NCBI GenBank assembly: GCA_002049455.2
Contig: KV918842.1
Location: forward strand, 1-64,000
Direction: 5' to 3'
DNA length: 64,000 bases
From: Porphyra umbilicalis
Lineage: Eukaryota > Rhodophyta > Bangiophyceae > Bangiales > Bangiaceae
The translations under genes and the position numbers were made by a program. The notes under the pieces were generated by a model. The model ran no database searches. It saw only the letters and a program-made list of their open reading frames with translations, and had not been told where the DNA came from. Below are positions 26,401 through 61,505 of the stretch, piece by piece. Each line of letters opens with the position of its first letter. The first letter of the stretch is position 1.

Positions 26401-26428
26401 GACCTGTCTGTCAGCCCTGGTCGCGACC

Positions 26429-27075: not shown

Positions 27076-27091
27076 GGCCAGCGCGTTCACG

Positions 27092-40735: not shown

Positions 40736-41218
40736 TGTCAGGCTGTGCATGCGACATCGACCGCCGCCACCGCTAATCTCTCGCCGCCGCCTGCTCCATC
40801 CAGTTCTTTTCCATTTTCACACTCGCATGACGTGATGGAGGAAGCCACAGACACCTTTGGTCCACCAAGCCCGCGCCACCGCGCGATATCTTTCCGCGAG
40901 AACGAATCATTTTGAAACATGACAATGTCACCCCCTTGTCCCGGTCACTCGCAGGCCGATGTCTTCGATATTGGGAAGTGGGCCAAACCTGACATGTCAC
41001 CATCTGCCCCTGCAAGCTACAAGGAAGGGTGCCGCTCGAAAAAATTTTAGCAAGCGTTGAATCACTCGAAACGACTCCAGGTCAGATAGGATTCCGCACC
41101 CTGTCCTCGAGAGCGTGCATCGGACCTGATCCCACTCGCCGCTGCGTGCCTCACTTAGAACCAACCCCATCCCCGTACGTCTTCTCTTCCATCCCCCCGT
41201 CACTGTCTCTCTTTGGCG

Positions 41219-42172: not shown

Positions 42173-42307
42173 CACGTAGTGGTCTGGAGCGCGTGCCCTG
42201 GTAATGCTGAATGGTCACAAAGGTCTGTCGCCAATCTGTCGCATCTATCCTTAGGGATGATGCCACCGCCTCGCTCGTTCGGTCATTTCGGGTTACGAGC
42301 CGGCGAC

Positions 42308-43467
42308 ATCGTCACCGCCGGCAGAATCCCCATCCAACCGAGTTTTAGATGGGCCTTGGATGTTGTCTCATCACTTTTTGGATGTTGACGGATGGGCGTC
42401 ACCCGCTCATCCAAGCCCATCCATCAGAGTTTTCGATGGGATATCGCTGGGCTTTGGATGGGCTTTGGATGTGCGTTCTGAGATGATGGCGTAGTCCCGA
42501 GTTCCGCCCGTGAGTTCTTCGAGTCTGGGTGGCCCGCTCGAGAGACAGCGTGTGATCCTCGGCAGGCTCGGCCGTTTCATTTTCAGAAGCCCCGAAGTAC
42601 AACCAAGAGACCATGTGATTGGCTACCAGTCGCACGTGGTTTGGCCACACCGCGCAGAAGTTTGGGCCGATGCACTTGGTCTGCTGGTACCACAAGTATA
42701 TTATTTTGTAGCATGCCAATGGCACATGCCTTGATTGGAGCCCGCCGTCCTCACGACCGACTCCGAATCCAACGAGGTGAAGTCGCGGCGGAGGCAAAGC
42801 TGCAGCGTTCGTGACTCCAGTGCCACATCGCATGCACGGGCGACCTCGCAATGGGCTTGCAGCGTCCATGACTTCCAAAAGCACTGTGCAAGTGACGGAT
42901 ATTTTGCACTCTCACAGCGAATAGCGGAGCGCTGCGTGGAGCACGGCGTTTTGCGATGTCTCCGACTCTTCGCGATTTTCGAGGCCAAGTCATCTCCTGT
43001 CGCTGTCTGTCGGCGTGAAGAAGACGACCGTCGGTCTGGTCGTTTCGTGGACGACGCGGACACAATCTACAAGATTTGAATGTCAATTACTATGAATCGT
43101 GGGAGTTGCATCGCAGAACAGCAAGAATTGACCTCGTGCCACCGACGCCGCCGAGCACGGCGGACAGGATGGGACTGATATGGGGGTTACAGTTAGCAAG
43201 GGCCCGCCACAAGAGCAGAAATGATGCTGGCCAAATGAGATGGCGGGATTTCTCCGCGGCCGTGACGAGGGCCGGAAAGAAACGGCTGTGCTGCACAAGA
43301 ACCCGATGACTGTTGACTGGCCTTGGTCGAGGAAGCCCATCCAAGTAACTCTTTGGATGGGGAATCGGGGGGCGCTCACAGACGTCAAAAACGCCCATCC
43401 ATCAGAGTTTTGGATACGGATAGGCTTTGGATGGGGACGGATGGGGATTCTGCCGGCGGTGACGATT
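42308..43467. mobile_element. Nested foldback-like unit with 28-bp inverted repeats
   Basis: ATCGTCACCGCCGGCAGAAT followed by CCCCATCC (from 42308) reappears inverted at 43438-43467 without mismatch over 28 bp. Next to each end are multiple GGATGGGC/GCCCATCC words, plus the word CCCATCCATCAGAGTTTT in direct orientation (42418 and 43403). The interior (42500-43300) has only short frames on both strands. Confidence 0.6.
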
Positions 43468-43987
43468 CCTGGGCGCTGCAATTGCCAGAGGCTGCTGCCA
43501 CCTGCCGGTGCGGCGATTGGAGTGGGTACGGCGGCGTGGGCCCGAATGATCTGGACGTGCGTCTCAGGCATCGGATGTCGTGGTCGGAGCCACTGAATCC
43601 AATCCTTTTTCATCATGTCGCGCAGGTGGCCGTTCTTTTTTGTCTGGCACCTTGCCTTTCTGAGCAACTTTCCATGCGATGTGTGACGATGTCAGGTTCA
43701 AAGATTGATATTTTGGGTTGAGGTGGTCGGCCTTCAGGTATCAACGAGAGGGGTGTGACAATGTCAGGTTTCAACCATCGTTTCCTTTCATTCACAAGTC
43801 ACGGGAAGTAGCCGTCTGGAGGTGCTTCACTGACATTCCCATATCCCCTGAGCAGCTGCGACGCAGATGAGGCGCACTTTCTTGGGCGCTAGGCTCGGCG
43901 CCTTTGCCCATCTCTCCATGGCCCCTCCGGTGTCGGCAGGCACATTTTCATTCCCGCTATCGAATCGTTCCTTTCCGTTGCCCGCAG

Positions 43988-45631
43988 CGGGCCGTGCCCC
44001 CCCCCTCCTCATCGGACGGTGGCGGCACGACAGGTGGCGGCTGCGGAGCCACCATCGCTGAATCCGTTGGCGACGGCTGACTGGCGGCATCTTTACGGGT
44101 TCCCGAGATGGGTGGCTCGCCGGCGGCGGCGGGGCGTCCCCTCCCGGTTCCCCCCCCCCCTCCCCCCCCCCGCCATTGTCGATGCGGCCGTTGCGGAGCT
44201 TCTCCACACCCCGCGGGCGGAGCTCGAGGCGCACCTCGCCACCGGCGCGGCGGTGGCGGTCGCTGCCTGGACGGCCGCGCCGGCGATCGCCGCCGCGCGC
44301 CTGCTGTGGCGCTACTATGCGCGCCACGGACGGGGGGGGGAGGCTACGGCTGGACTCCTCGCGTTGGGCGACGCGCGGGATGCGCCAGCGGCGGCGCGGG
44401 GGGGGTGTGGGGGGGGGGGGAAGAGGAGGAGGGGTGTGGGGGGGGGGGGAGAGGGGGAGGGGGGGGGGGCGACCCGCCCCGCCGCGTGTGGTGGCGCCAG
44501 GGGGGGGGGGGGGAGGTGGCCCCCGCCCCGCCGCCGCGGCGGCCGTCGACGGCGGCGGCATGGGTGGCGGCCGCGGGTGCCCTCGCCGCCGCCGCTGCGC
44601 GGCTCGTGCCGTCGCCACGGGCCCCCGCCCCATACGCGACCGGCGCCACGCACACCGGCTTGTAGGTCGCTACGGCGGCAGCTGCGGCCGCCGCCGCCGC
44701 CTCGTTTGGCGCCGCCGCGTCGGCGTCGCGCGCTCCCACGGGCGCTGCCGCCGCCGGCGGCGGCACCGGCGGCGACACCCCGTCGACCGCCGCCGCCGCC
44801 GCCACCGACGGCGACGGGGGCCACGACGCAGACCATCCGCCGTGATGCCTCGCAGCCCTCGTCGCGAACCTGTCGCTCGGAGTCCACGTGGCGGCGGCGG
44901 CGGTGGGAGGCGGCCGCGGCGGCGGGGCGGCCCGCGCTGACCTTGTGGCTTCCCGGCCGGGCGCTGCCGTGGCGGCGGTGGCGGCGAAGCTCATCGCCGC
45001 CCTCGATGTGGCCGCAGTGAAGATGCGCATGCGGATGGCGCTGCTGCGGCGTGCGGCGGCGGGTTGGGTGGCAGCAGCGACGGATGCGACAGCCACCGGC
45101 GGCAGCGCCGACACGTCCCGGTCCGACGGCGCCGCGGCGGCGGCGGCGGCGCTTGACGGCCGCGTCTTCGACCTGTCGACGCTCTTTCACGCCTGCATCA
45201 GCCCGTGGGCGCTGCCGCGGTCGGCGATCGCGGCACTCCTCGTTGGAGACGCGCCCACCGAGCGGTCGGTCGTCGGGGCGATGTGGGCCGACCGTTCGGA
45301 CCGCCTGCCGGTCGCGTCGGGCGTGAACGATAGGGAGCAGCTGGCGGGAGCGGGCACCACCATATCGGCGGTCGCCACCTCCCGCTTGACCTCCCTCGCG
45401 GCGCTCGCGAGGGCGGGGGGGGCGGCGGCGGCGGGAGCGGGTGGTCCCCCACCGCTGCAGAGCGGCCCATCGAGGTCGCCACCGCCGCCGCCGCGCCGGC
45501 GTGTGCGTATGGGGCGGCAGCGGGGGGTAGTGGGGCCGTTTTTTGAATGCAACGGACATTTGTCAAAAAGATCGAGGCTGACGATCATACGAGCGGCTTC
45601 TATACGGCTGTCGGAACGCGTCGGGTGTTGA
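43988..45631 (+). pseudogene. Nucleoporin Nup155-like C-terminal region (fragment, frame-disrupted)
   Basis: Structural scaffold nucleoporin of the inner ring (Nup155/Nup170 family) if intact. One frame encodes VDAAVAELLHTPRAELEAHL then RLLWRYYARHGRGGEATAGL (about 44170-44360), the pattern of the Nup155 C-terminal solenoid. After G-rich DNA (44398-44515) another frame encodes AAVAAKLIAALDVAAVKMRM and LDGRVFDLSTLFHACISPWA with VVGAMWADRSDRL (44970-45310), which fit the later Nup155 helices in order. Only about the last quarter of the family length is present and no upstream exons were found; the sequence just upstream is transposon-like. A plausible splice acceptor (TTGCCCGCAG) ends at 43987. 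The last ~25 codons read into a dispersed repeat (45596-45617). Family inferred by eye. Confidence 0.5.
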
Positions 45632-45956
45632 AAGCGTCTACAGGGAATCCACAAAAGCGCACAAAGGTGGAGAAGTACAAGCACAACGGACAAGGTGGGA
45701 GACTTGGGATGGCCAGGGGGAGGGACAGAGTGGAATGCTGAAGGCGCTGGGGAGCAGCGAGCTAGAGTGCGTGCATGTGCCGGAGCGCCGGTCGTCGTTG
45801 CCTTGTCGCACCAACAACCACACCGCAGCATCTCCTCGTCTCAAGAGTTGATAGTGCAATTTGGGTACACAACTACGCGTATGATCCGGCGACGGCAGAG
45901 GCGCGGCCAAACTGACCGCCCGCGACCAGACATAACTCCGCTGCCGACGACCCGAT

Positions 45957-46550
45957 GATCGACACTTTAACACAGTGATCGACACTTTAACCCAGTGACC
46001 AACACTTTAACCCAGTGATCGACACTTGAACCCAGTGATCGACACTTTAACCGGTGGTACCGAACTTGAAGCGGGGTGTAGACCACTTTGAAAGTGTATT
46101 TAAGACTGCGCGGGCGGCTGCTTTTCAGTTGGCACGACTCGACGCAACTAGCGATCCGACGGCAGCAACCGCGACGGTGTCGCCTGGCCGAAGCGCGAGT
46201 CGGCGCTCTCGCACTCATGCCCGGCGGTGGTGGTGGTGGAGACGCGTGCCGCGTGTTGGTGGGTGTCAGTGGGTGTCGGTGGGTGTCAGTGGGTGTCGGT
46301 GGGTGTCGGTTGGTGTCGGCGTGGGGCCCGTCTGCCACCGAGCGCCCGAATGCCGGTGTTTGGTCGTCCCAGAGACGGCTGCCCCGTACTCTCGGATGCC
46401 TCAATGTCCTCATTGTCCTCATTGTCCTCCTTGTCCTCCTTGTCCTTTTTCTTCAATTTCCTCATTGTCCTTATTGTCTGTTTCCTCATTGTCCACATTG
46501 TCCTGGTGTTCCTCATCGTCCTCATTGTCCCCGCCCCCCCCGCCCCTCAC
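45957..46550 (+). mobile_element. Internally deleted copy of the repeat-module element (copy 4)
   Basis: Five ~20-bp units (45957-46053) are followed by the same post-array block as at 38912-39035 (CCGAACTTGAAGCGGGGTGT; ACCACTTTGAAAGTGTATTT; CGACTCGACGCAACTA). After a short (GTGGGTGTCG)n stretch (46254-46320) comes the same right-end block as at 40433-40520 (CACCGAGCGCCCGAATGCCG) and the CATTGTCCT microsatellite. About 1.4 kb of interior present at 39.0-40.4 kb is missing. Confidence 0.65.
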
Positions 46551-47348
46551 CAGGTATAGTGGGGGGTCTCTAGTGCAGCGGCGCCGCCGAGGCGACCGAC
46601 ACCAGCCGTGATGGTCCAAATTCTCACCTCACACGACCGACCAACCCCACCGCCACGACGACTCGTGCGGCCGGGTTTCATCCATGTCGGCGCGTTCAAC
46701 ACCAGGAAGGAGGGGGTGTTTCGGCAAGGTGGTCGCACGCCCCGGTGGGATGGACGTGGGGTCGTCGCAGCGCTGCGGCTGGGCCCATCTGTCGGACCCG
46801 TGGGATCTGTATGGCGAGCATGTGCTCTATGCGGCGACGCCGCCGCACCGCAGCGGTCGGCAAGACGTCGTCCAGGCGTCTCCATGATGGCCAACGGTGG
46901 CGTTCAACGCGCCACACCCCTTCTGTCCGTGCCACGCCCGCGCGTATGACGTCACAATTTTCCACACCCCATCCCCGCGGAGGGGGGGGGGGGGGGGCGG
47001 AGGGGGGACTCGCGGTGCCCGTTCGTCCGTACATTGTCTGCTCCCACCGTCGAGTGCCGACCCACCGGGTGCCGACCCGCCGACCCACCGCCCAGCTTCT
47101 CCCACGGCCGCCGGTGCCCGCATGGCGGCCTGTGGGTACACCCACCTGCACGCTCCGGCGGCGGCGTGGCGCGTGGAGCCGAGGAAGGAGGAGAGCGCGG
47201 CGGGAGTGCCTGCACGCAAGGCTGTGTTTGTGTCGTGCGCTCGGCCGGCCTGCAACCAGCTCCTAGACCGTCTCGCAGGGTGGTCTGGTCCCGTCCGTGT
47301 CGTGTGACGGTCCGCGGCAAGCCAGCCACCGCTACCCGCGCCGTTTCC
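46551..47348. other. Spacer upstream of the Fanzor gene, no gene seen
   Basis: Open frames on both strands overlap and lack recognisable domains. A G run lies at 46983-46998. If the Fanzor gene belongs to a transposon its left end should be in or before this region, but I found no inverted counterpart downstream of 61455. Confidence 0.4.
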
Positions 47349-47355
47349 TATAAAA
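47349..47355 (+). promoter_or_regulatory. TATA box of the Fanzor gene
   Basis: A consensus TATAAAA stands in otherwise very GC-rich DNA, 141 bp before the ATG at 47490. Transcription would start near 47380, giving a leader of about 110 bases. Confidence 0.5.
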
Positions 47356-47489
47356 TGTGCGATGGGTGCTGGCGCCGTGCACAACCATGCGCCCACAGGC
47401 CTGGCCGCCGTGCCGCCCCGCGCCGACACCCCTTGCGGGCGGCAAGGGCGCGCCACCGCCTTGAGGACGTCAAGCCCCCCCCCGCCCGT

Positions 47490-50136
47490 ATGCTCTCGTC
47501 CCCCACCATGGACGCCCAGTCGTCGACCGACGAGGAGGAGGCGCCCGGCACGTCGTCAGCGCTTCGGGCGCGTCGTAGCGGCCGTTGTCCCACGACGCGG
47601 CGCCCCACAACGACCACCAGTTTGGCGACAGCGCCGCCCCGCGAGGCGACGGCGAGCGGCATGGACAATGGCGACAATGGCGAAGGTGTGGCTGGGCCTG
47701 TTGGCGCAGACCTCGACGACGACGACGAGGTCACACGCCTCGGTACGGCCGGCGAGGACGCGGCAATCAAGGTGGGTGGCCACCTCGACAGCGCGCGGCA
47801 GAGTGCGGCGTCTGCCGTGCGGTCGGCGACGGTGGAGGTTGCCGCCGCCGTCGCCGCGTGTGAGGCGGCCGGTGATGCGGGGCCGGTGGCGAGCTTGCGT
47901 GCCGCGAGTGCCCTCCTGGCCAAGCTCCTCGCATCAAAGCCTGTGCACGCGCGGGGCACTGAGTCGCCCGCGTCGGCGGCGATGGACGACACCACGTCGG
48001 CCTCTACTGCCGTGCTGCAAGCCGTCGCCGCGGTGACGGTGCCGCCGCCCCGGCCACCCGCACCAGACGAGGGCGCCGCGGCACCCCCCGCCGATGCCGA
48101 CACAAGAGCCGACGCCTACGCCCGGGTGGCGTGCAGGCGCCTCTGCGCGCGAGCGCGTCACGCGGCCGGCAGCGTCTTGTCGGCGGTCAAGGGCCTGATC
48201 CCCATGGTGCAGCTCGACGCGGGGGACCACGCGGGCGACGACGATGGCGACGGCAATGGTGGCGATGCTGGCGCCACGGCGCGCGGCGGCGGCGGCACGC
48301 GTGGCCGCCAGCGTCGATGCGGCGGCTGCGTGGCGACGGGGCACAATGTGCGGACGTCTCCAGCCGACGCAGCCGCCAAGGCGGCGCACGCGGCGCGTGG
48401 CGAGGCGGCCAAGGCGGCCAAGGGCGCCAAGGCCGGCAGCGGAAACAACAAGTGCAGTGCGTGCCACGCGCGTGGCCACACCCGGGACAGCGCTGTGTGT
48501 CCGCTGCGAGCCGTCACCCACGGCTGGTCGGGCCACAATGCGGACCGCGGGCGCGACTTGGGGTGCGTCGACCAGCACCGCATGATGGGGGAGATGACGA
48601 CGACCGTTCCCGTGTCGGTCGACCGGTTTTTGGGTGTCCGACGACGGCTGGCGCGAGGGCGGCCGGCAAACGCTTTGCCCCCAACGGGGCGCCCGCCTAC
48701 GACGTCGAGCCGTCGCGCGCCGACGGGGACCGCCGACACCGTCGCAAACGCTGCCGCGGGGGCGGCCGCGCTGACCGAGTTGGCCACGGCACAGACGTAT
48801 TATCTGCGGCTCATGGCCATTGTCATGGACGGCACGATGCGGTACCTGCTCGAGCGCGTCGACGGTGGTGGCGGCGGGCGAAGTGCGGGCGGGGGCGGCG
48901 GCGGTGGCGGCGGCCACCTTCGCCGCACGCTCGACGAGTTTATCGCGGCCGTGCCGGCGTCGCTCACAAGCAACCACGGGCTTGCCTGGAAGCAGGCCGC
49001 TTCGACCATCTCTTGTCGCGGTGTCCACGCGTTTGGCGGCGCCCCCCGGAGGGCGTGCGTCGATTGCTCGGGTAGAGGCGCACACGTAAAGCCCCGCGGG
49101 GACATCAAGGCCGCCGCCCAAGGCGACGGCGACTACTCTGCCTTTGTGGCGGCGTCGGCGGTGGTGGCAGACGCGGTGACCGAGCCAAGCCAGTTGCCGT
49201 GCAGCTTGCTGCTGCCGAGTCCGGGCGACACGTCTGGTTGGGCCACCGTGGCGACGGCTTTTGAAAACCACTATGTGACACACGTCACGTCGGCGGTCAA
49301 GGCCATTGCCAAGCGCATCGTCCTCGACGTCTACCCGCAGACCCCCGGCGGTCTCGACGGACAGCGCCGCGCGGCACTGATTGCGGCCCTCATTGCCGGC
49401 CTGCAAGCCGCCGACGGCACGCGCCCGCCGTCGTTCAAGTGGCCGGCGGGCAAAGTGTCTGCTGCGGATGGGGCTGCCATGGCGGCCGGGGCCACGCTGG
49501 CGCACGACACTGTGCTAGTCTACGCCGGTGGTGACGGTCGGCGGCGCTGTCTCCTGCAGCTCGACACGTCGACCCTGCGACAGCGGCCGCTGCACGTCTA
49601 CCCGCTGCTCCACTATGCCCAGCTGTTGTGCATCCGTGCCGGCATCGAGGCGACCGACGTCACCCGGCCGAACCGCCACGTGCACCGCGTACGCGCGCGT
49701 CGGCGGCGCGCTGCTCCGACGGCGCCTGGCGTCCGCTGGGGTGTCGCTCCCAGCGTCGACAACCGACGGGCTGTTCATTCAAACGCTTCTGCGCCACGCG
49801 CGCATTGTCGGCGGCAAGACGGTGGTCGGGCCCTCCATCGTGTCGGACGGTGTCGGCGTGCACTTTACGATACGGCACCTCGCCACCGCCGCGTCGACGG
49901 CGGCCGCTCGGCGGGCGCGGCGTAAGGCTGCAAGTGACGGTCGTGGGGGGGGGGGGGGGGCACCGAGACGGTGAGCGTGCGGACGCAGCTGGACCGCATG
50001 GCGTTTTCGCCCGACGTCGTCAAGGAGCTGGCGTTTGTTGGGTGGGACCCGGGCGTCGCGTCGGTTGTCGCTGCCTACTGCCCCGGGGCGGTGCCGTTTG
50101 TTCAGTCACCTGCGCCGCACCTGCACGCGTATCGGG
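47490..50136 (+). CDS. Fanzor (eukaryotic TnpB-like) nuclease, 5' part up to the retrotransposon insertion
   Basis: First part of a large RNA-guided nuclease of the Fanzor/TnpB family. ATG at 47490 or 47508 (CACCATGGAC). An acidic, Ala-rich N-terminus is followed by two zinc-knuckle-like motifs: CGGCVATGHNVRTS (from 48318, last Cys replaced by Ser) and CSACHARGHTRDSAVC (48453-48500). The 48.6-49.7 kb part is helical/mixed (YYLRLMAIVMDGTMRYLLER; HVTSAVKAIAKRIVLDVYP; LHVYPLLHYAQLLCIRAG). The frame shifts by one near 49676-49690, giving TAYARVGGALLRRRLASAG, and again at the G run 49948-49959. RuvC-I is then encoded as LAFVGWDPGVASVVAAY, with the catalytic Asp codon at 50046-50048. The chain is cut at 50136 by the LTR element and resumes at 59163. 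Nuclease identity rests mainly on the 3' part. Confidence 0.8.
50132..50136 (+). other. Target-site duplication (left), TCGGG
   Basis: TCGGG directly precedes the 5' LTR and is repeated directly after the 3' LTR at 59158-59162. A 5-bp duplication is normal for Ty3/gypsy integrases. Confidence 0.9.
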
Positions 50137-50502
50137 TGTTGCATTCGGCAGGGGCTAAGTCCAGTACTTGTGCCCCTGCCGGGACTTGCGCCCGTCTCTC
50201 CGTACTTCGGATTGCGGCCTGTGGGACGGCAGTCCCTCCCTAAATAGCCCCCCTATTCGGGCCAGGGGTTACTCTTTCGTCTCTCCTTTTCGTCTGTTTT
50301 CGTCTTGTTATTACGCCGCCAGCCTTGCCCCGCGCCGCCCCGTCTTGCTCGCCATCTAAATCTTGGGGTCCCTCTCGAGTCCTAGCCTTTGAGCGCCTTT
50401 GCGGCGTCTAGGTCCTCTCGGTAGGTTGACCCTTTAGGTCCTTCTCTTTTGTACTGTCAGTTTGGTTCTAGGGTATTTGTTCGCGCCTTCTTTGTTGCCA
50501 CA
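50137..50502 (+). repeat. 5' LTR (366 bp)
   Basis: Begins TGTTGCATTCGGCAGGGGCT and ends TTCTTTGTTGCCACA. It matches the 3' LTR except for seven substitutions and no indels. It follows the duplicated target TCGGG. Confidence 0.97.
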
Positions 50503-50504
50503 CT

Positions 50505-50519
50505 TGGTGGAGCAGCAGG
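50505..50519 (+). other. Candidate primer binding site
   Basis: TGGTGGAGCAGCAGG starts two bases after the 5' LTR. The TGG start is complementary to a tRNA CCA end, as in LTR retroelements. The priming tRNA was not identified. Confidence 0.5.
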
Positions 50520-50743
50520 GGAGAGGGCGTCGTCCCTTTCGAGGGACGCCTCTCCTCTCGCGAGCCCCGGCCACAACGGTGCGGACGCCCCTGACGGTTC
50601 ACGTGACGTGACCACTTTGTGGTCCCGGTCACCCGGCGGCTGTTGCTGCAGGCCGGGGGAGTCGCTCGACGGTGCCCGACGGGCCGTGGTGCCGTCGTGT
50701 CCGGGTTTGTGCTATCTCGAGACAAGAAGCCAACCTATCTCCG

Positions 50744-52444
50744 ATGGCGAGCGGGGGTGCCGATCCCCCGCGCTTTGCCCCCCCTCATGATACGGGCGCT
50801 GACGCTCGGCGTACGGCCGACGGGTCAGCCCCTGCGACTACGACTCCCCCTCTTCCCCACGATGCCTCTGGTCTCCCCGATCCAACCGCAGCGGCTCCGG
50901 CTTCGGGCGGCTCGGGCGCTTCCCTCGGCGATACTAATCGTCGCGCGGAGCAATCGGTGGTCGCCAAGTTAACGACGCTTGTGTGTACGTTGGCCGCTTC
51001 CGTCCGAGAGCTACGCGCCGACGTGACAACGTTGCGCGACCCAACTGGGACGTTGCCGATGTCGACCGCTAGTGGACCCTGGCCCACTGACCCAACACCG
51101 GCAAACACCCCGGCCCCGCGCGACCGGCCCCGGTCGCGCAGGTCCGCTGCCTCAACGTCGCCGTTGGCCTCGCGGAGCGCGGGCGTACGATCGGATCCCG
51201 ACGCCCGCTCTTCGCGGTCTGCCGATGACGACGAGCCGCCCCTAGACCCCAGCAGCAGCAGCAGCAGTGACAGCACCGGCCCCGCGCGCCACCGCGTTCG
51301 CTCGCGGCGCCGCACCCGCACGCGGGTCACCGGTCGGACAGCTTCGACGCCAATGGCGGTCATCCCCTGGCCGCTCCCCTTGACGTCCAAGCATGGCCCG
51401 TTCTCGTCGCTGCTCGACTTCCGCCGCTACCTCGTCCGCAATGCGGATCCGACGTATGGCCGGTCGAAAACAAGCCAACTCCGCAGGCACCATCGCCTGC
51501 TGGACGGTCCGTTCCACGGCGTCGCGCTCTTCGATGGCTCGGATCCGCTGGCCGTCCTGGCGCTCCTCACTCGCTTCCGCACAGCCGCGGACGAAATGGA
51601 TGTCACTCTGGGCGAGGCCCCGTACCTCCTCGCCTACCGCATTGGCGGTGAGGCCAAGGACTACTTCGTCCAGGAAACAAATGACCCACACGGCAGCGCC
51701 GTCGGTACCAGTTTCCCGCACACGAGCAACTATCTGTTGACCCGCTATGCACCCGAGGACGCCCTGCACACCGCCGAAATGGCCCTCCGTACCGCGGAGC
51801 AGCGCCAAGACGAAGGCGAGCGCGCTTTCTATCAGCGGTTGATGCGGCTCGGCCGACAGCTCATGGGTATGTACGACCCGGGGCAGCTACGGTACCTGTT
51901 CCTGAAGGGGCTCCACCCCTCGGTACGTGCCCAAGCCGAGCTGGCCGACCGCACATGAGCCACCTTCGACAAACTCGTGGCGCTTGCGCAGAAGATCGGC
52001 GATGGGCTCCGCTCGGACAAGGTCAGCACCGGCAAAGCCGACCGGTACGCCAAGGCCAAGAACGTCCTGCAGCTGGGCTCCAGGAGCGGAGCGAAAGCCG
52101 AACCGGTCCTGTGGGCGGCGCCACCAGCGACGACGTCGGAGGCCACGCCGCCACAGAGCCGGAACCCCATGGATCGGCCTCTACCGCAGCAGCCGTTCCA
52201 GGCATTCAACCCTACGCCACCGGCGGCCCGGACGCCGTCGGCCAGAACGGCAACCCACTGGCCTCCCCGACCGGGCGGTCCGGCGGGACGGCCGGCTCTG
52301 GTCCACCTGAGCCAGGTGCAGTGCCACCGCTGCCGCGGTTTCGGTCACTACGCCCGCGCATGTCCTTCGCCCGACCGGGCGATGGGGACAGGTGCGCCGC
52401 CTGCGGTCGCGCCGGGACCCCCTGGCGCGGCCCGTCCTGCTTAA
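50744..52444 (+). CDS. gag: Retrotransposon Gag with CCHC zinc knuckle (one in-frame TGA)
   Basis: Structural protein that packages element RNA. From ATG at 50744 (MASGGADPPRFAPPHD) a Ser/Pro/Arg-rich N-terminus is followed by the Gag-like capsid region (FDGSDPLAVLALLTRFRTAA; LTRYAPEDALHTAEMALR; ERAFYQRLMRLGRQL; YLFLKGLHPSVRAQAEL), the signature arrangement of Ty3/gypsy Gag. A TGA at 51956-51958 interrupts the frame right after that region; the same frame continues (DKLVALAQKIGDGL) to a zinc knuckle CHRCRGFGHYARAC (52322-52363) and ends at TAA 52442-52444. The TGA could come from CGA by one C-to-T change. An open extension upstream to 50672 begins with GTG and is not used. Confidence 0.9.
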
Positions 52445-52635
52445 CGCCCAAGTCGGATGCAATACGCGATGGCCGCCATCGCCGGGGACCCCTGGGGTGA
52501 TCCGCTGGTGCCGGACGACACCGGCTCCCTCAGCGGAGACGAGACGGTCGGCGCCTCGCCCGGTGATCTGCAACCGGATCCGAGTCCAACGGTGGACCCG
52601 CCTGCCCCTGCCGGGCCGGGAAACTAACACGGGGC

Positions 52636-53486
52636 GTGCCGCTAGCGGCTCGGCCGCCCCGTGCCGCCCCCAGCCCGCAGGGTCCGAAGATACGGGTACA
52701 CCGTGTCTTGGCTCCGGTATACCGGCAGTATACCATCCCCGCGGCCCTCAGCTTTGACAAGGCTCGCATGCGGCTCATGACACCGACCCTGGATACAGGC
52801 GCCGGGCCCTCCATCATTCGGGTGGACGCCCTGCCCAAGGGTTGGGAGCGGCGGTTGCATCGACGCCCTCATTTGCCCCACATTGTGGACGCAAATGAAA
52901 ACCCTATCTCCGCCCGAGGCATGATCACCCTGCGCCTGCGCTCCGGTGGCTTCGCCACGGACGTCGACTTTGTCGTCGTCCCGCGCCTCGCCGTCCCTGT
53001 GCTGCTCGGCACCAGTTTCATCAACCGCCATGTCGAGGCGCTCTACCCGCGCCGTCAACGCGTCAGATGGTCCACCGATGCTTCGGTGCCCATTTTATCG
53101 TGCACGGCACGCGGCAAGAAAGAACGCCGCCGATCCCCGAGGGATGCGACGGTGCGCCTCGCGCAGCGGCGGGTGCTGCCCTCGCAAACCCGTACGGCCC
53201 TGCTGGTCACCGCCGACCTCGCTGGTCAGGTCCTAGTCGCGCCGTACGACCGCCTTCACAAGCATCACCGCTGTCAAACGGCGCGTGGCCTGGCCGTCGT
53301 TGTCCCGGGGCAACGCTTCAGCGTTGAAGTCGCTAACCTCAGCGACAAACCGGTCTGCCTCCGCAAGAGAACTATCCTCGCTACCGTTAGCCCGGTCGAC
53401 GATATCGACTGCCTGCTCGTCACTGACGACGCGGCATCGCCCACCGCGGCCGCAGAAGCGGTGCTAGACCAAGTCGATCTCTCTGG
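52636..53486 (+). CDS. pol: Retrotransposon aspartic protease and inter-domain region
   Basis: Retropepsin-type protease: the active site LDTGAGPSII has its Asp codon at 52792-52794, followed by the flap region (ISARGMITLRL) and the C-terminal VPVLLGTSFINRHVEALY. After it comes a beta-rich stretch (GLAVVVPGQRFSVEVANLSD) that precedes reverse transcriptase in related elements, but the frame passes directly into the RNase H tail at about 53487 in another frame. No YxDD or other reverse transcriptase motif exists anywhere in the element. The protease is in a different frame from gag (frame 1 versus frame 2). The start codon is not defined; the polyprotein probably continues from gag by frameshift. 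Confidence 0.88.
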
Positions 53487-53489
53487 CGT

Positions 53490-55892
53490 ACCGACCACGA
53501 ATGCCTCAGTTGGATCTACCGGCTGACGACGGCCACCGGTCGTCTGCTCCGTTGGCGCCTCCGCCTAGCAGAGTTCGACTTCGAGGTGAAGTACAAGAAG
53601 GGAGCGAACCACCACCTCCCCGATTCCCTGTCCCGCGTACCCACGACGGGTCTGGACAAGAGGGAGCTGGACGACGACATCCCATGCTTCCTGCTGGCTC
53701 AGGCCGCAAGGGGCACGGACGCCAACAACTTCTCGGCGCCGTTACCGCCTCCCCCTATCACAGCGGAGGAGCTCCTTCGCGCACAAGGCGCGGATGGCCG
53801 ATGCCAGCAGCTACGCGCCGTGATCGACTCGGGAAAGCCGACGCGGTTCGTCCTCGATGAGGAAGGCCGCCTCGTGCGCCGTCAGCCAACGACGGACGTT
53901 ATGCAAGTATACATCCCCGAGGCCCTACGCTCCCGCGTGATGGGCCTCGAGCACTACCCGACGACCAAAGGTCACCCTGGGGTGCAGCGGATGTACGCCG
54001 CCATGAAGCGTTGCTTCTATTGGGAGTCGATGATCGTCGACCTGTACGACTTCGTCCGGCAGTGCCCGCCGTGCGCGAAGAACCGGCTGCAGGAGCGACG
54101 GCATACGTCCCCCATGACCCTGTTCCCGTCAAAGGAACCGTTGACCGAGGTTGGCATTGACATCCTCGGACCGCTGCTCAACACGGTTGACGGCAACCGG
54201 TATGTGTTCGTCATGTCCGACCGCTCCTCGAAGCTAACCCGTACGGTTGCGCTCCGACGTATCACCGCCGTCACGGTCGCGTCGGCGTTCCTGACCGCAT
54301 GGGTCGCGGCCTACGGGCCCCCCGACTGCGTCCTATCGGACCAGGGTCGACAGATGGACAACGCGTTCTTCCGCGCCGTCATGAAGATGTTGGGCACGAG
54401 GTGCAAGTACACGACGCATTACCATCCGCAGACCAACGGTCAGGTGGAACGGTATAACCGTACGCTGCTGAACCAGATCCAGGCCTTCTGTGAGGAGCAC
54501 CCGCGACAGTGGGATCGCCTCCTCCCCGCCCTGAGCCTGGCGTACAACACCTGCCCGCATAGGGCCACCGGTATGGCGCCGTTCGACCTCCTAATCCCCC
54601 GCCGTATGCCCAACCTCACGGTTGAGGGCCTCGCTGGCTCGTCCCCGCTGGCATCCGCCGATGGCTCCCCGCTCATGGTGAAGCGCGCAATCATCCAGGG
54701 CTTGAAAAAGCTCATCCCGACGGTGCGCGCTTCCCTCGACAAGTACCAGGCTCGCTATAAGCGAGACTAGGACAGCCGGGTACGGCCGAAGAACAATGAC
54801 CTGGTGGTCTGTGACTTCGTCTACCTCCGCTCCCACCGCGGGGGGCACAAGCTGCTGTCCACGGCCCTTGGCCCGTTCGAGATTCTCTATACGGACGGCA
54901 CCTACTTCGTAATCGACCAAGGCGATGGCGAAGGACGGGTCAACAGTAACGACGTCACACCGGCACCGCGCCCGGTGCCGGGACCGGATGCCCAGCCGCA
55001 TCGGCTTACACAGACCCCGCTCCCCGACGTGAATGCCTCCGATGAGGATCCGACCTGGGAAATCGACCGGCTGTTGGCTATTCGCCACGACACCGATAAC
55101 GGCATCGTGGCGAAAGTTCGGTGGGCCACTTATGGCCGGGGCGATGATTCGTGGGAACCCATTTCGGGTTTACCGAAACATCTCGTCATCCGCTTAGCGA
55201 AGCAGAAGAAGTTTACGCTTCCCGACGACGCCTTCCCGACGACGCCGGTCGTCCTCGCCCCGCCCCCGCGGCAACCCAATTGGGTCTGCGTCGCGGTCCA
55301 GCAGCACACCGACGAGACGGGTGCCATGCTCGTCGATGTGCGCTGGGCGTCCCCAGCGGCAAGCCACGAGGAGACCGTCCCTGCCCTTTGGACATCCTCC
55401 CTCCTCGCGGAGTTTCCCGACGACCCGCCGGCTGCCCACTGGGCATTGGGCCGCCCCGCCTTCGAGAAACTCGACGCGGTCTGGGGCCCCCATACGGTCG
55501 ACCTGTTTACCACCGCCGCGGCCACCCATCTACCCCGGTTCCTGCCCCTGTCCCCCGCGGACGCCGCGCGCGGCTGCGCCGCGGCGTTCTCGGTCGACTG
55601 GGCGGTCGAGAACGGGTGGGCCAACCCCCCCTTTTCTTTCCTACCGCAGGTCCTCGCCCGCATCACCTCCTATCCATGTGACATCACCCTCGTCGCCCCG
55701 CGCTGGCAACACCAGTCCTGGTGGACGCTCGCGACGCGCTACTGCGCCGCTCGGGTGCAACTCAACCCCCCCTATCCTACGTTCACGGTGGCAGGCCGCA
55801 CCGCCCCCTCCCCGCCGCCCGTGTGGCGCGTCGTGATCTTCCGCTTTGAGAAGGCCCACACCTTACGGGTCAACGCCTGCGCCACCGCTTAG
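53490..55892 (+). CDS. pol: RNase H tail, integrase and chromodomain of the retrotransposon (one in-frame TAG)
   Basis: Starts inside RNase H (TDHECLSWIYRLTTATG, then YKKGANHHLPDSLSRV). Integrase follows: an HHCC zinc finger (LEHYPTTKGHPG with CPPCAKN), then the DDE core with Asp codons at 54159 and 54339 and Glu at 54447 (GIDILGPL; LSDQGRQ; TNGQVERYNRT). TAG at 54768-54770 interrupts the frame just after YQARYKRD; the same frame resumes with an SH3-like integrase tail (VVCDFVYLRSHRGGHKLLS). A chromodomain (WEIDRLLAIRHD to VRWATYGRGDDSWEP, about 55050-55190) follows. The last ~150 residues (GPHTVDLFTTAAATHLPRF; WANPPFSFLPQVLARI; LVAPRWQHQSWWTL) resemble a domain found in some DIRS and Ty3 elements. 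Stop TAG is at 55890-55892. Confidence 0.93.
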
Positions 55893-58348
55893 CGGTGCCG
55901 CTGCCGAGGACCTGTGGGCCGCTCGTCCCCCGACTCGTCGCTGTCGTCATAGACGAACCGCTCGTCGGCAGAGGCCACGCGGTCCGCCGCCCGCACTTCG
56001 TCCAGGATACGACCAATGTCGTCCTCCAGGTGCGTCGCGCGGCGGAGTTCTTTGACGACCTTGACGACGCCGTCCATCGCCTCCCCCATCGTGCGGTCGC
56101 TAGACGTCCGCAGGGGCGCGTGCAGCCGGTCCACGCCACTACGCAGCACCCGGCTGATCGCCAGCCCCACGGCGCCAGCCGGCGCGCCGCCCGTCGCGTC
56201 CAAGCGCTTCACGGCCGCCGCCGAAAGGTGCGCCCGGAGCGCGTCGCCTTCAGGCGCAATGGACCCCTCGCGGTACCACTTGTGGTGCGCCGCGTAGGGG
56301 GGCTCCACCTCGTGCCCCTCGGACGACCTCGGGCGTTTCCCCCGCGTGGTCCCCCCGCTCCGCCGCGACCCGGTTGCCCCCGCCGTCGACCGGGCCGCCC
56401 CATCGGCACCGACCGGCGACCGGCCGCGCCGCGCGTCGCCCGGTCGGGGCGCCGCCCCGCCGCCGTCCGCCCGCCCTGACGCTCCACCGGACGCCGGCGG
56501 CTTCCGCCGGCGCGTCGACGCCGTTGGCGGTGACCACGACCGCTGGCTACCACCCGCGGATTCCCCCATCGCCGCCGCGCCACTCCGTTGCGACGGCGCC
56601 GGCGGCGACGTTGCCCGTCCCGGCGTCGGCCCGCGCCGAGGGCGAGGCGTCCCGCGTCCCGGCGGCGGTGTCCGCGTGCGTCGCGGCGGGGGCGTAGGTG
56701 ACCGCGACCGGCGCGGCCCCGCTCGCGGCCGTTGAGGCGACGGTGCCCGGCGCGACCCCGTTGCCCGACGTGACGACCCCCGAACGGGCGATCGTGTCCG
56801 CGTGGTCGACGCCGACGCCGACGGGGACCGCGACGGCACCCACTGGGCGTCGTCCCGGGCACGCCCGCTCGGCGGCGACCGCGACGGGGACCGTGACGGC
56901 ACCCACTGGGCGTCGTCCCGGGCGCGCCCCCTCGGCGACGACCGCGATGGCGACACGGCCCGCCATGACGGCGATCCCGAGCCTGCCACCGCCGCGTCCT
57001 CCCGGGCCGCGTCGCTGCCCCTGCCCCGGGTGGGCCCCGCCCCCAAGTTCCCGGACGCCCCCGGCGGCCCCCGCGCCGTGGAGCTCCGCGACGTCGCGCG
57101 CTCGGCCCGACTTGGGAAGTCGACGCCCCTAGCGTCCAACGCTAGTCGAAACCCGTATGGGTTCGCCGCGTCGTCCGCCTCCGTCGGCAACGGCGTCTGC
57201 CCGAGCGGCAAACCCGCAGCCGACACGACGTCTCCCCATTCGGGGAGCAGCACCGCCATGCCTTGGAGCAGCCGCTGCAGCCGGGCGTGCTCGTCAGCAC
57301 TCCCCTCCGCCATGTCGTCCAGCCGGAGACGCTCCAGCCGGTGGAGAAGGTCTGGGGAGATGCGGTGGACCCGCCCGCCGGCGAGGTCCGCCAGCAGCGC
57401 GATGGCGGTGAGCTGCACGCGCTCCACCACGTACATGTCCCACAGGCAGCTGCGGTCGTCCCCCATCATGCGGTCGTAATAGTACGACAGCACGGTGGGG
57501 TACGCCACGTGCAGCCCCCGCGGCAGCTCCAACTCGCCCAGCGCCTCCGGCACGCGCCGCCAGCCGGCTCAGTTCAAGCCCTTGGCATGGTGGCCGGCCG
57601 TCATCAGGTACGGGACGTCGTCGCCCTTGCGCGCCCGAACGTCCACCTCCTTTCGCGCTTGGTTTACCGCCACGCGGTCGCCCTCCGCCAAAAGGAGCGT
57701 CAGGTCCCGCCCAACCCCCTCGGGTTTCGGCCAGGAGCTGATGTCCGGGCACTCGTACGGCAGGACCGCCCGTGGCGCCGCCCCCGCGTCCACACGACGG
57801 GCGTTCTTGTCCGCCGCCTCTTCGTAGTAGTACGCCGCCGCATCCATCGCCTCCCGGTGCTGCGCCTCGGCGGCCTGCACGTACCCGAGGTCCGCCGACG
57901 TCCGTAGATACGGAAGCGACAACTCCGTCAGGTACTCAGCTGGTGGGGTCACCGCGTCCGGCATGAGGCTCATAAGGCGGCCCCAGCAGTGCGCCACCCA
58001 CGGCACCCACTCGCGGAGGACCGCCTCGTTCTCGTTCACCCTCACGAAGGCGTACGCCGTCCGGACGAACCACGACGGCAACGCCGTCCCGAAGCGCACC
58101 ACCTCGCGGCTGAAGCGGACGGCCAACTCGCCATCGCACCGCTGCGAGTGCACCTCGTGGATGCCGCCGTGCCAGTACGCCATGCGTACGCCGGCCTGCA
58201 TGCGCTCGACCGCCGGCTGGTTCCGCGGGTCTGGCCCCGGCACCCGCTCCCGCTCCGGCACCTCGTCGTGGTCCGCCAATACGCACTCGGCGTACCGCCG
58301 CAACCCCGCCCTCAACGCGTCCCGCAAGGAAGGCGCGATGTAGACCAT
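55889..58348 (-). CDS. Antisense gene of the LTR retrotransposon, RS-rich protein (one in-frame TGA)
   Basis: From ATG at 58348 (MVYIAPSLRDALRAGLRR) the frame runs to TAA at 55889-55891, interrupted once by TGA at 57569-57571. The N-terminal ~380 residues are globular and helical (FVRTAYAFVRVNENEAVL; YLTELSLPYLRTSADL; YPTVLSYYYDRMMGDD; LLADLAGGRVHRISPDLL). A long Arg/Ser/Pro-rich region follows (about 56400-57000, including a 66-bp duplication coding ARDDAQWVPSRSPS). The C-terminus is acidic and helical (MDGVVKVVKELRRATHLEDD; FVYDDSDESGDE). Its stop overlaps the pol stop on the other strand. No domain recognised. Antisense genes in Ty3/gypsy elements are uncommon; it may be an accessory or a captured gene. 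Confidence 0.75.
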
Positions 58349-58544
58349 CGCCGCCGCTTCCCCGGTCGCCGCCGTCCGCCCAAGTCGGCAGCACGCCAAC
58401 GCCGATGGCGTCCGCGCGTGCCGCCTCCGTCGCCGCCGACCGCGTCGTCGTCCCCGTCGTTGCCCTCCGCCGCCGGCGCCCCGCGTTCTTCAACGCTGCC
58501 CCCGCCGGTCCCCGCACGGCGGTATGACCGCCTCGCCGCCGCTC

Positions 58545-58710
58545 GCCGCCGCGTGCTGCCCGCGCGCGCGCCCCCACGCGGTCCGCGTCGGCTGGTGGCC
58601 CCGCCCTGTGCCCTCGCGCTGGCGCCGCTCGCCGCCGCGTGCTGCCCGCGCGCCGCCCCCACGCGGTCCGCGTCGCCTGGTGGCCCCGCCCTGCGCCCTG
58701 GCGCTGGCGA
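58545..58710. repeat. ~82-bp tandem duplication before the 3' LTR
   Basis: GCCGCCGCGTGCTGCCCGCG begins near 58545 and again near 58630. Both copies run through CACGCGGTCCGCGTCG and TGGTGGCCCCGCCCTG with a few substitutions. It lies upstream of the antisense gene start, so it may be part of its promoter. Confidence 0.75.
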
Positions 58711-58783
58711 CCCCCGCGCGGCTGCTCGGCCCGAGCGGCCCCGCATCCGTCCTTGCTGGCGGGTGACCGCCAGGTCCTGGCCC

Positions 58784-58791
58784 GAGGGGGG
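58784..58791 (+). other. Polypurine tract
   Basis: GAGGGGGG immediately precedes the 3' LTR, the position at which plus-strand synthesis is primed in LTR retroelements. Confidence 0.6.
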
Positions 58792-59157
58792 TGTTGCATT
58801 CGGCAGGGGCTAAGTCCAGTACTTATGCCCCTGCCGGGACTTGCGCCCGTCTCTCCGTACTTCGGATTGCGGCCTGTGGGACGGCTGTCCCTCCCTAAGT
58901 AGCCCCCCTATTCGGGCCAGGGGTTACTCTTTCGTCTCTCCTTTTCGTCTGTTTTCGTCTTGTTATTACGGCGCCGGCCTTGCCCCGCGCCGCCCCGTCT
59001 TGCTCGCCATCTAAATCTTGGGGTCCCTCTCGAGTCCTAGCCTTTGAGCGCCTTTGCGGCGTCTAGGTCGTCTCGGTAGGTTGACCCTTTAGGTCCTTCT
59101 CTTTTGTACTGTCAGTGTGGTTCTAGGGTATTTGTTCGCGCCTTCTTTGTTGCCACA
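58792..59157 (+). repeat. 3' LTR (366 bp)
   Basis: Same length as the 5' LTR, with seven substitutions. It ends in CA at 59156-59157 and is followed by TCGGG. Confidence 0.97.
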
Positions 59158-59162
59158 TCGGG

Positions 59163-61455
59163 CGTACCGGGCGCTGCGGATTGCGGGCGATGCGCTCGCG
59201 CGGGCGGCCATGGCCGCGACCGCCGCCGCCGAGTGCCTCGTGCGGCGGGGTGGTCGGGTTTTGCCGACCGTCGACGCGCTAAACGCCAAGTTGGCCGACG
59301 TTGCGCGCACTGCCAAGACCGCCGCGGCCAGTCTACCCGTCGGCGGCGGTGAAGCAGTGGCGCGTCCGGCCAAGAAGCGCGTGCGGGGTGCAGACGGTCC
59401 GCCGTCTGGGGACGGCAAGCGTCCTTCAAAGCGGGCCCGTTGTGCCCGCGACGTGTCGACAACAGGGTTGCAACAGCGCTCCCAGTCGGCAAGTGCGCCC
59501 CCGCGACCAACGGCGCCGACAGACGCGGTGGATCCCCCCCCCCCAAGCGCCGGTGGTACAAGCAGCCGGCCTTTGGCGACGAGTGGCTGACCCCGATTCA
59601 ACGGCAAGAGGTGGCCCGCAAGCGGGGCACGAGCGCCCCCGGCCGCCGCCGGGCCATCCTCACGCGCATGCGCGCCACCGCGCACGCCACGATCAATGGC
59701 GGCAACGTCCAACCGTGGCACCTGTCCAACCACGTGTGTGTGTGGATGGGCAAGGCGGCCCTGTTCAAAAAGACGGCGCACACGACGGCGGCTGTGAAGG
59801 CCAAGACAGACGCGGCGGCGCACGCAGAGGCAGCATGGCGTTCAGTGTCGGTCGACAGTGGGGCACACGCCGCGTGCGTCGTGCAGCGCGCGGCGCAGGA
59901 CAAACGCCAGACGGCGGCGGCATTGCGCACGGTAGAGCGAGTGGCGGCTGCGGCGGCCGCTGCTGCACCCGCTGCGCCCCCGCAGCTCGGCGCGCCCGGC
60001 ACGTCGCTGCCGTCGGCCGACCGCTTGCGCGTGTTGTGTGCCGCACTCAAACGTGCGGCCGCCGCCGGGGGGCGCCGGCGCGTGCGCGTCCCGCCCACTG
60101 GTGCGACGCTGGTCGTCTCCAAAGGCGCGTACCGCGAGGCGACGGGCGCCGGTATGACGAGGCGCGCCGAGGCGGCAGCGGTGGCGGCGTGGGCGGCGGC
60201 ACACCCAGGCGTGCCGCGCGAGTCACTGACGGCCGGGTGCTCCCTCAAGGTCACGACGTGGGGCGCGTGGGTTGTGGCGGCCACTGCGCGCATTGCGCGC
60301 ACCTACACAGACGCCTATCAGGCGGCGTACAGGGCGGCCGCGACGTACGGTAAACGCAAGGCGCGGCTACACGCCCTCATCCAGCGCAACCGGTACGCGG
60401 CGGTGCTGGCGCGCCGCTTGACGGGCGGTTTGCTGCGGCGCACGGTGGACGGTACCAAGGCGGTGTTGGCGATTGGGCGGTGTCGGCCGCGCGCCGGCAG
60501 CGTCGACCTCGTGCGGCGCATGGCCAAACACGTGCACCTCTTGTACGTGGACGAGCACAATACGAGCCAGACGTTTGCAGAGTGCGGCCACGGCTTGTGC
60601 AACACGTACGTGTCGCCCGACTCGCCGGTCGACCTGACGCCCCTCAAGGCGGCAAGCAGTTACGCACATCGCGCGTCGGCGTCGGCGGCCAAGCGCGCCT
60701 CGCCCCTCCGCGGCGGCCGGCGCGCGCGACGGGGTGTGACGACCGGCAGTCGGTCGGGTCCACGCGACGGTGCGGCTGCCCAGCGCGCCAAGGAGCACGC
60801 AGAGGCGGTGCGGACAAAGGTGCTGCAGGCGATTGCGGCTCACGGCAAGTGGGCGTTTGGGACCGACCCGCTGGCGCTGTGGGGGGTCAAGCTGTGCACC
60901 AACGTCGCGTGTCCCGCGACGTACGTCGGGCGAGACACCAACGCGGCGCGCAACATGTCCAAGATTGCCATCAGGAGCATGCAGGGTCGGAGCGTCTACC
61001 CCCACATCCGGGGGTACACCGTGTCACGCACGCCGCCCCAGGACGACCCTGTCCAGGCGGTGCGGCACACGGCTGCGATCGAGGCGGGTACCTACGAGGC
61101 CGGCTACGGGTGGACGCGCTGTTCACCCACGTCGTGCGAGCGTTGGCGCCGACCTGTCGTCACCGACCCGGCGGTCGTGGAGGCCGGGACGACCCCGGCG
61201 GTCGCGGAGGCCGGGACGGCCCCCACGGCCGTGCCAGTGGCGGCGCCAACGGTGCGGGTAGAGGCGCTGGGTGTGGTGGCAGACGGGGCGCACGACGCAG
61301 CTGCTGCGTCGGCAAGCGGTGACCTGGCGACGAGTAACGTCGGCCAGATGGCTGCTGCCAGCCCCGCGCCAGCCTTCGGGCACAGCCACTCGTCTTCGAG
61401 CCGCCTCGAGCGAAAATTCGTAGACTGTTCACCAGGTTCATCTCGTGGGGTGTGA
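59163..61455 (+). CDS. Fanzor (eukaryotic TnpB-like) nuclease, 3' part with RuvC-II, zinc site and RuvC-III
   Basis: Continuation of the gene at 47490-50136: with the LTR element and one TCGGG removed, the codons TAT-CGG-GCG-TAC run through. After a basic segment (PAKKRVRGADG; KRPSKRARCARD) the frame shifts at the C run 59536-59546 into KRRWYKQPAFGDEWLTPIQ. RuvC-II is LLYVDEHNTSQTFAECGHG (Glu codon 60553-60555). A zinc site of two CX4C pairs has Cys codons at 60583, 60598, 60895 and 60910. RuvC-III is YVGRDTNAARNMSKIA (Asp codon 60934-60936). This order (D, E, zinc ribbon, D-x-N-A-A-R-N) is diagnostic of TnpB/Fanzor. The protein ends with a Val/Ala/Pro-rich tail at TGA 61453-61455. The joined coding length would be about 1,650 codons, large for the family. 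Frame breaks lie at a C run and at the insertion, so activity now is doubtful. Confidence 0.9.
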
Positions 61456-61505
61456 ATAGGGAGCTTCGCTCCTCACCTCTTCCAGAGGTGACTACTGGTT
61501 GATAG
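61456..61505 (+). ncRNA. Candidate guide-RNA scaffold or 3' hairpins of the Fanzor gene
   Basis: Two hairpins follow the stop at once: GGAGC-TTC-GCTCC (61460-61472) and a 7-bp stem TCACCTC/GAGGTGA with a 5-base loop (61473-61491). Fanzor and TnpB guide RNAs are transcribed from the 3' end of the nuclease gene and reach past it, so the position fits. The hairpins could equally be an mRNA 3'-end structure. The guide segment and element end were not located. Confidence 0.3.

Follow-up and report, generated by a model that had tools for sequence, protein, structure and literature searches.

Why eukaryotic transposons retain Fanzors is an open question, and a locus of the red alga Porphyra umbilicalis puts it in concrete form: which kind of nuclease is encoded by a very long RuvC gene that a retrotransposon has split in two, and what carries that gene? 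The locus lies in the first 64,000 nucleotides of contig KV918842.1 (assembly GCA_002049455.2, positions 1 to 64,000, forward strand; hereafter the window), where a first-pass annotation had reported a large gene for a Fanzor RNA-guided nuclease. It is probably a large Helitron2-like transposon, apparently non-autonomous and damaged in this copy, whose last gene codes for a Fanzor-like RuvC nuclease of very great length. Dozens of copies have the Fanzor-like gene directly against the Helitron2-like 3′ terminus, and in some the frame is open through the nuclease. The gene would also widen the size range of Fanzor-type proteins. Because the terminus occurs with and without a nearby gene in one genome, the origin of a guide, action in trans and a benefit in copy number can all be tested there.

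The Interrupted Gene

The gene lies in two parts on either side of the insertion, with the following landmarks.

47508..50136, plus strand: Fanzor-like gene, 5′ part up to the insertion (open frames, motifs, Pfam scan, register comparison)
48453-48500, plus strand: knuckle-like CSACHARGHTRDSAVC in the N-terminal region, below the Pfam cut-off
50040-50054, plus strand: RuvC-I GWDPG, Asp codon at 50046
50132..50136, plus strand: left copy of the target-site duplication (TSD) TCGGG (sequence identity with the right copy)
50137..59157, plus strand: long terminal repeat (LTR) retrotransposon, 9,021 bp (paired LTRs, TSD, protease and integrase frames)
50137-50502 and 58792-59157, plus strand: the LTRs, 366 nt each, TG...CA
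59158..59162, plus strand: right copy of the TSD TCGGG (sequence identity with the left copy)
59163..61455, plus strand: Fanzor-like gene, 3′ part, stop codon at 61453-61455 (motifs, Pfam PF07282, row alignment)
60544-60588, plus strand: TNB region YVDEHNTSQTFAECG, RuvC-II Glu codon at 60553
60895-60912, plus strand: CTNVAC, the second Cys pair (CX4C)
60931-60954, plus strand: RuvC-III RDTNAARN, RD at 60931-60936

The first-pass annotation had placed GWDPG before the LTR element and the RuvC-II and RuvC-III motifs after it, and each is found where it was placed. The insertion is also as precise as had been claimed: the 366-nt LTRs run TG...CA, the TSD is perfect, and uninterrupted paralogues carry contiguous HLHAYRAYRALR across the insertion site, which makes this an empty site among paralogues, not among alleles. 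The insertion point separates the RuvC-I Asp from the remainder of the nuclease; thus, no active nuclease is expected from the window copy.

Removal of the insert together with one TSD (9,026 nt) had been said to restore the frame through the junction. It does so, but past the junction the GWDPG register, resuming as RAYRALRIAGDALARAAMA, lasts only about 140 codons, with a stop at 59,588-59,590; before RuvC-II, the conserved reading of the window copy shifts register close to 59,533, in a poly-C run. Further breaks lie on the 5′ side. The long N-terminal frame at 46950-49922 is in the same register as GWDPG, yet two stops separate them; the conserved piece at 49705-49890 uses a different register from both, and the register returns close to 49,950, in a poly-G run. 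The break near 49,657 is private to the window copy and occurs in none of its five close relatives (L017, L018, L020, L024, and L027). Homopolymers of this sort differ in length from copy to copy, and assembly error may account for some of the frame breaks that fall in them. The G+C content of the window is 67%.

Two further claims had concerned zinc binding. Both reported CX4C pairs, CGHGLC and CTNVAC, are present in the window copy; the first pair of the ribbon, however, is CX2C (CAEC) in the relatives and reads FAEC here, a Cys-to-Phe change seen in one of the 13 rows that cover the column. The proposed N-terminal zinc knuckle scored 16.8 bits, under the 22-bit Pfam cut-off, and was not upheld. 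The annotation had also called the gene recently disabled, which is right only in part: the 98.1% identity of the two LTRs agrees with it (seven differences, three transitions and four transversions; Kimura two-parameter distance 0.019), but the frame breaks and the lost zinc Cys are part of the damage too. Its remark on unusual length was borne out: the window gene has about 1,640 codons counted from the Met at 47508, and the single open frame of the related copy L023 has 1,921 codons from stop to stop, the first Met being residue 98.

A Repeat Family at the End of a Long Element

What had been taken for a single locus belongs instead to a family in which the RuvC-III stretch is present at least 56 times, and it forms the 3′ extremity of a long element of Helitron2-like type. 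A 27-base pattern for RuvC-III, allowing at most two mismatches, gave 56 matches in the genome (83.8-Mb assembly, 665 contigs) and none with the reversed control. The search with PF07282 gave 32 hits; all are flagged above the cut-off, although seven reach it only together with in-frame neighbours. The light-harvesting family PF00504 had 10 matches over nine contigs, which makes an algal host probable. In the window, the element and its ends are laid out as follows (ATIR, asymmetrical terminal inverted repeat).

21389..61498, plus strand: long Helitron2-like element, about 40.1 kb with the LTR insert and about 31.1 kb without the insert and one TSD
21389..21403, plus strand: 5′ terminus TTAGCGAAGCTTCTA, its first base placed to within about 1-2 nt
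21391-21399, plus strand: 5′ ATIR AGCGAAGCT, which begins 2 nt inward on the assumption that TTAGCG is the end
31373..33199, plus strand: Upf1/IGHMBP2-like superfamily 1 helicase frame (Pfam AAA_12 1.2e-30, AAA_11 1.8e-17; PDB helicases including SMUBP-2 and UPF1)
61462..61470, plus strand: 3′ ATIR AGCTTCGCT, the reverse complement of AGCGAAGCT, ending 28 nt before 61498
61474..61490, plus strand: 3′ terminal hairpin CACCTCT-TCC-AGAGGTG, 4 nt before CTGG and followed by ACTACTGG to the end at 61498

The stop codon of the gene is only 43 nt upstream of the 3′ end of the element. That end reads ...GACTACTGR and is followed by T in all 20 tabulated copies (L027, which does not have this end, was left out); the base after six further ends was T in five and G in one. 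The terminal 21-mer, with at most one mismatch, occurs 66 times in the genome (control, none), and 39 of the 56 RuvC-III loci have it in the same orientation on their 3′ side, at a distance of 438-566 bp. The hairpin pattern matched once in the window and never in 100 shuffles. Its stem is mostly kept with a differing loop in L009 and L010, and carries changes on a single side in L020, L022, and L023.

No RuvC-III match lies within 700 bp of 27 of the 66 terminal 21-mer ends. Five of these 27 have a RuvC-III stretch farther upstream, the terminus lying about 8.76 kb past it on contigs C38, C116, and C447 and about 16.9 kb past it on C55 and C288; transposition that read through to a later terminus is possible in these five. 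Another end, L051 (C89:97400-98150, 751 bp), has its last 39 nt in common with the Fanzor copies, whereas the 666 bp upstream are unrelated and contain no Fanzor gene.

A sharp edge was also found on the 5′ side: among the matches from the 40 of 520 candidates that were scored, 28 of 41 non-self matches start at 21,384-21,393, 10 at 21,406-21,434, and three later. All 10 of the 5′ ends that were read carry TTAGCGAAGC, and an eleventh, from C21, does not. A retroposon, whose copies would share the 3′ end but be truncated at various points on the 5′ side, was at first considered, but the common 5′ end led to its rejection. Between the two ends, the window segments 22,000-29,100, 29,000-34,100, 34,000-39,000, and 45,600-46,800 recur on other contigs with order and orientation kept, and the whole is therefore read as one long element. 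When only contigs with both sides listed are counted, a same-strand 3′ end lies 16.3-84.5 kb downstream of 13 of the 16 5′-side places, some of these spans containing nested copies; C3, C23, and C111 are the exceptions. The helicase region recurs with 97-99% identity at three places on C78 and also on C173, and partial copies of 87-93% lie on C120, C258, and elsewhere on C82. At C78:115000-148000, the part that matches window positions of about 29,000-34,100 is present three times in the same orientation.

Twenty regions were fetched for comparison of the family, which comprises two subfamilies. The window copy belongs with L017, L018, L020, L024, and L027 (90-97% identical DNA), and the DNA identity between this subfamily and the others is about 77-89% over long alignments. 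The ratios of nonsynonymous to synonymous substitution (dN/dS, Nei-Gojobori) across the subfamilies were 0.27-0.30 for the N-terminal part and 0.41-0.43 for the C-terminal part, with two pairs each; within a subfamily they were 0.41-0.66 in five comparisons, with 0.30-0.83 for parts. The synonymous divergence between subfamilies drops from about 0.34 to 0.08-0.10 over the last 330 codons, and third-position identity rises from 0.67-0.86 to 0.88-0.96 in the last kilobase or so of the gene. Both gene conversion and constraint at the nucleotide level explain this low 3′ synonymous divergence.

These data bear on whether the family is simply an ordinary relic, that is, a dead nuclease family of pseudogene copies with 3′ identity from gene conversion. 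Among the tabulated copies, only L023 has an unbroken frame over the whole length, and the window copy, with its lost zinc Cys, its private frame break, and its split, looks like such a relic. L023, however, is open over its 1,921 codons, the stretch from RuvC-I to RuvC-III is open in six fetched copies (L013, L017, L018, L021, L023, and L027), dN/dS is below 1, and many of the breaks lie in long G/C runs where assembly error is possible. We regard a dead family as quite improbable.

Probable Affinity to Fanzor and to Helitron2

The reading of the nuclease as Fanzor-like is carried by the arrangement of its key residues, which in protein P0001 are D1124 (DPG), E1622, C1629, C1632, C1637, C1736, C1741, and D1749. 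As the annotation had it, the layout is of the Fanzor type, with DPG at RuvC-I and the Glu at the Fanzor-specific position. GWDPG is found in the window copy and in most of the rows covering it, the departures being DSG in L027 and DPS in L009. According to the parts of Yoon et al. (2023; PMC10711439) compared here, the Glu of Fanzors is six residues upstream of the zinc-finger CxxC, whereas in TnpB it is typically about 50 upstream. E1622 of P0001 stands six residues before the CxxC formed by C1629 and C1632, as in the Fanzor scheme, and the earlier RuvC-II call is therefore right. The remaining pattern, [TS][TS]xx with a four-Cys ribbon followed by x(5,50) and RD, is also found in P0001 as TSQT, C1629/C1632, C1736/C1741, six residues, and RD at 1748-1749. 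The full motif appeared in none of 20,000 composition shuffles of an intact relative, and a relaxed motif of RuvC-II, ribbon, and RD in four of 20,000. PF07282 matched all 11 rows of profile A2, with a best value of 3.8e-8. Furthermore, a 32-residue piece aligned with chains of Cas12m, Cas12f, and TnpB; with the Cas12f chain 9nzo it aligned as YVDPYHTSQTCSFCGH, the Glu standing opposite a Pro of that chain, and Cas12- or TnpB-type proteins made up seven of the 12 chains listed (E 0.076-1.1).

The ends likewise resemble those of Helitron2, whose ATIRs lie 0-2 bp from the 5′ end and about 20-30 bp from the 3′ end in the description by Bao and Jurka, as far as it was compared. The ATIRs of the present element occupy these positions, and the 3′ end has the terminal hairpin. 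The target is T-rich, with T at position -3 in nine and at -2 in eight of the 10 5′ ends. No TSD of 4 bp or more was found in any of the five copies with both ends complete; a sixth copy (C21) is without an exact 5′ end. The 5′ hairpin involving the ATIR is a weak predicted 5-bp stem of -2.6 kcal/mol (40-nt fold, DNA parameters requested).

A number of results speak against this combined assignment. The spacing from the RuvC-I Asp to the RuvC-II Glu is 498-500 residues in P0001, outside the published patterns of 120-160 (regular expression of Yoon et al.) and 125-275 (Bao and Jurka), as given in the parts compared. The zinc ribbon of P0001 carries an insert of 103 residues and has CX4C as its second pair, again outside the regular expression of Yoon et al., the compared part of which puts 12-18 residues between two CxxC pairs. 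The profile search proposed by the first-pass annotation did match PF07282 in the window copy (E = 5.3e-4, Pfam protein scan), at 20.5 bits, under the cut-off of 26.3; as a single protein, L023 reached 26.0, just under it. Two PRDM9 zinc-finger chains ranked first with the 32-residue piece, above the Cas12 and TnpB chains. By sequence, no relatives outside the family were found in homologue, PDB, and viral-contig searches. The homologue search with the 1,921-residue protein had no match, and that with profile A2 returned at E ≤ 10 only 12 metagenome proteins, all of them close (64-94% identity over 16-65% of the query; 7,994 candidates were scored, and the word filter and length limits may hide distant relatives). 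The PDB gave no significant full-length match and no Fanzor chain by sequence; among viral contigs, none of 11 pattern matches was confirmed; and NCBIfam had no match for the Fanzor-like protein. AlphaFold predictions from shallow alignments (11 close rows for 711 residues, 12 rows for 361 residues) had pLDDT (predicted local distance difference test) values of 31.3 and 32.9 and yielded no usable model. On the side of the element, the scanned frames gave no Pfam match to a Rep or RepHel, and no HUH-type frame followed by a Tyr motif was found. The genome has 28 Helitron_like_N hits, all of them on contigs other than those where PF07282 or the RuvC-III pattern located a Fanzor copy. Finally, the reach of the 3′ third-position conservation, about 1 kb, fits gene conversion as well as RNA constraint.

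Given the spacing, the ribbon insert, the CX4C pair, the Pfam scores below cut-off, the lack of outside relatives by sequence, and the lack of a usable structure, we do not count the gene as a strict member of the Fanzors; we see in it a Fanzor-like variant whose mode of action is probably that of a Fanzor. Similarly, with no RepHel found and a weak 5′ hairpin, the element is at best a non-autonomous Helitron2-like one. Its ends could instead belong to another class of mobile element (Replitron-like or of an unknown type), which would leave the reading of the nuclease unchanged. The missing RepHel, the absence of a shared terminus in four RepHel loci (3.5 kb each, a span that may not reach their ends), the weak 5′ hairpin, and the Upf1-like helicase would all suit this alternative. 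The position of the ATIRs, the 3′ hairpin, the T-rich target, and the lack of a TSD nevertheless match the published anatomy of Helitron2, and another class is in our view somewhat unlikely.

A Fanzor gene in a Helitron2 element is in itself already known. Literature was compared in part (PMC3627910, PMC10711439, PMC10432273, and PMC11423790). As described in the compared part of Bao and Jurka (2013), Chlamydomonas CRe-1, CRe-2, and CRe-3 are non-autonomous Helitron2-type elements with a Fanzor1 gene, and they share with the present element ATIRs, conserved 3′ ends, a T-rich target, and the lack of a TSD where the 5′ end is complete. The present element is tens of kilobases long and has a helicase gene, and its protein is far longer. 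The Fanzor1 proteins SpuFz1, GtFz1, and PpFz1, as far as compared, have in common with it DPG, the six-residue distance from Glu to CxxC, a zinc ribbon, the RuvC-III Asp, and a home in a eukaryotic transposon. They differ in length (Fanzor1 up to about 800 residues, here about 1,640-1,920 codons), in the distance from Asp to Glu (158 in SpuFz1, D383 to E541; 498 here), and in the 103 residues within the zinc ribbon and the knuckle-like N-terminus found here. The large Fanzor1s of Yoon et al., in the part compared, reach about 800 residues at most and have their REC, RuvC, and zinc-finger domains enlarged by insertions, a trend that the present gene takes further. TnpB, Cas12f, and Cas12m share the TNB motif and the RuvC-III pattern, whereas the Glu is at the alternative position here and there is no significant full-length similarity. 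For so long a protein, for a gene in this position relative to the terminus, and for a carrier of this size, no precedent was found in the openly licensed literature as far as it was compared, and full-text searches of that literature for 'giant transposon' with Fanzor and for 'giant Helitron' had no matches.

A Possible Role for RNA Guiding

Why would a transposon keep such a gene next to its 3′ end? Saito et al. (2023), in the part compared, point to Fanzors that are found together with Helitrons and propose that they serve transposons of the single-stranded DNA kind in a cut-and-copy manner. In the mechanism proposed here, the present element would move as single-stranded DNA, with Rep supplied in trans. 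By analogy with OMEGA systems, a transcript of the 3′ end could use the terminal hairpins as a scaffold and the host bases that follow as a guide; the candidate scaffold would end in ...CACCTCTTCCAGAGGTGACTACTGG and be followed by the locus-specific flank, and the hairpin at 61474-61490 is its candidate 3′ end. The transcript would bring the nuclease to an empty target, whose T-rich 5′ side would serve as the target motif and whose 3′ side would match the guide, and the action of the nuclease would help the element to be kept or copied. In the window copy, a Ty3-type LTR element has landed between the RuvC-I Asp and the remaining nuclease. An alignment of the 3′ ends, examined by eye, has conserved stems with changes on single sides and no compensatory pair, and scans of the window for tRNAs and against Rfam at the gathering threshold had no match. 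In its full form, the scheme holds that each insertion gains a guide to its own empty site, that it is cut there by a nuclease roughly double the biggest Fanzor1s of Yoon et al. in size, and that elements with this terminus but no Fanzor gene, of which L051 appears to be one, are served in trans; we offer it tentatively and would sooner doubt it than assume it.

The protein may, alternatively, be derived from a Fanzor and serve the transposon without RNA guiding, for example as a nucleic-acid binder or a strand nuclease, its extra domains having replaced the guide system. The very unusual size with its insertions, the knuckle-like N-terminus (below cut-off), the departures from a strict DPG in L027 and L009, and the within-subfamily dN/dS values given above would all accord with loss of guiding. 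The RuvC-II Glu, the ribbon, and the RuvC-III Asp are, however, invariant or nearly so among the copies and the close metagenome relatives, and this alternative appears unlikely, if less so than a dead family.

The LTR Retrotransposon and Neighbouring Genes

The insert has Pfam matches for a protease, an integrase, and a weak chromodomain (E = 5.2e-4, below cut-off), and no reverse transcriptase domain was found in its scanned frames. It is like Ty3-type chromodomain LTR retrotransposons in the order of protease and integrase, the weak chromodomain, and the 5-bp TSD, and differs from them in that no reverse transcriptase domain was found and in two antisense frames before the 3′ LTR. These long frames (554 and 276 residues) lie on the minus strand at window positions 55889-58399, between the integrase and the 3′ LTR; neither had an NCBIfam match, and Pfam matched neither the first nor the longer stop-to-stop form of the second. 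Eighteen other places in the genome match the insert over more than 5 kb at 89-98%, antisense frames included, and the region of these frames is therefore part of the LTR family. From the 25 of 423 candidates that were scored, all 42 non-self matches begin at or after window position 53,486, which suggests that the insert differs from the family copies on the 5′ side of this point, through a deletion or as a recombinant.

Outside the element, a class I peroxidase-like frame follows window position 63,243 (read by eye, with no match by a tool). At 9182-17325 lie frames for an elongation-factor-like GTPase, a DRG-like GTPase, and a caspase-domain (C14) protein.

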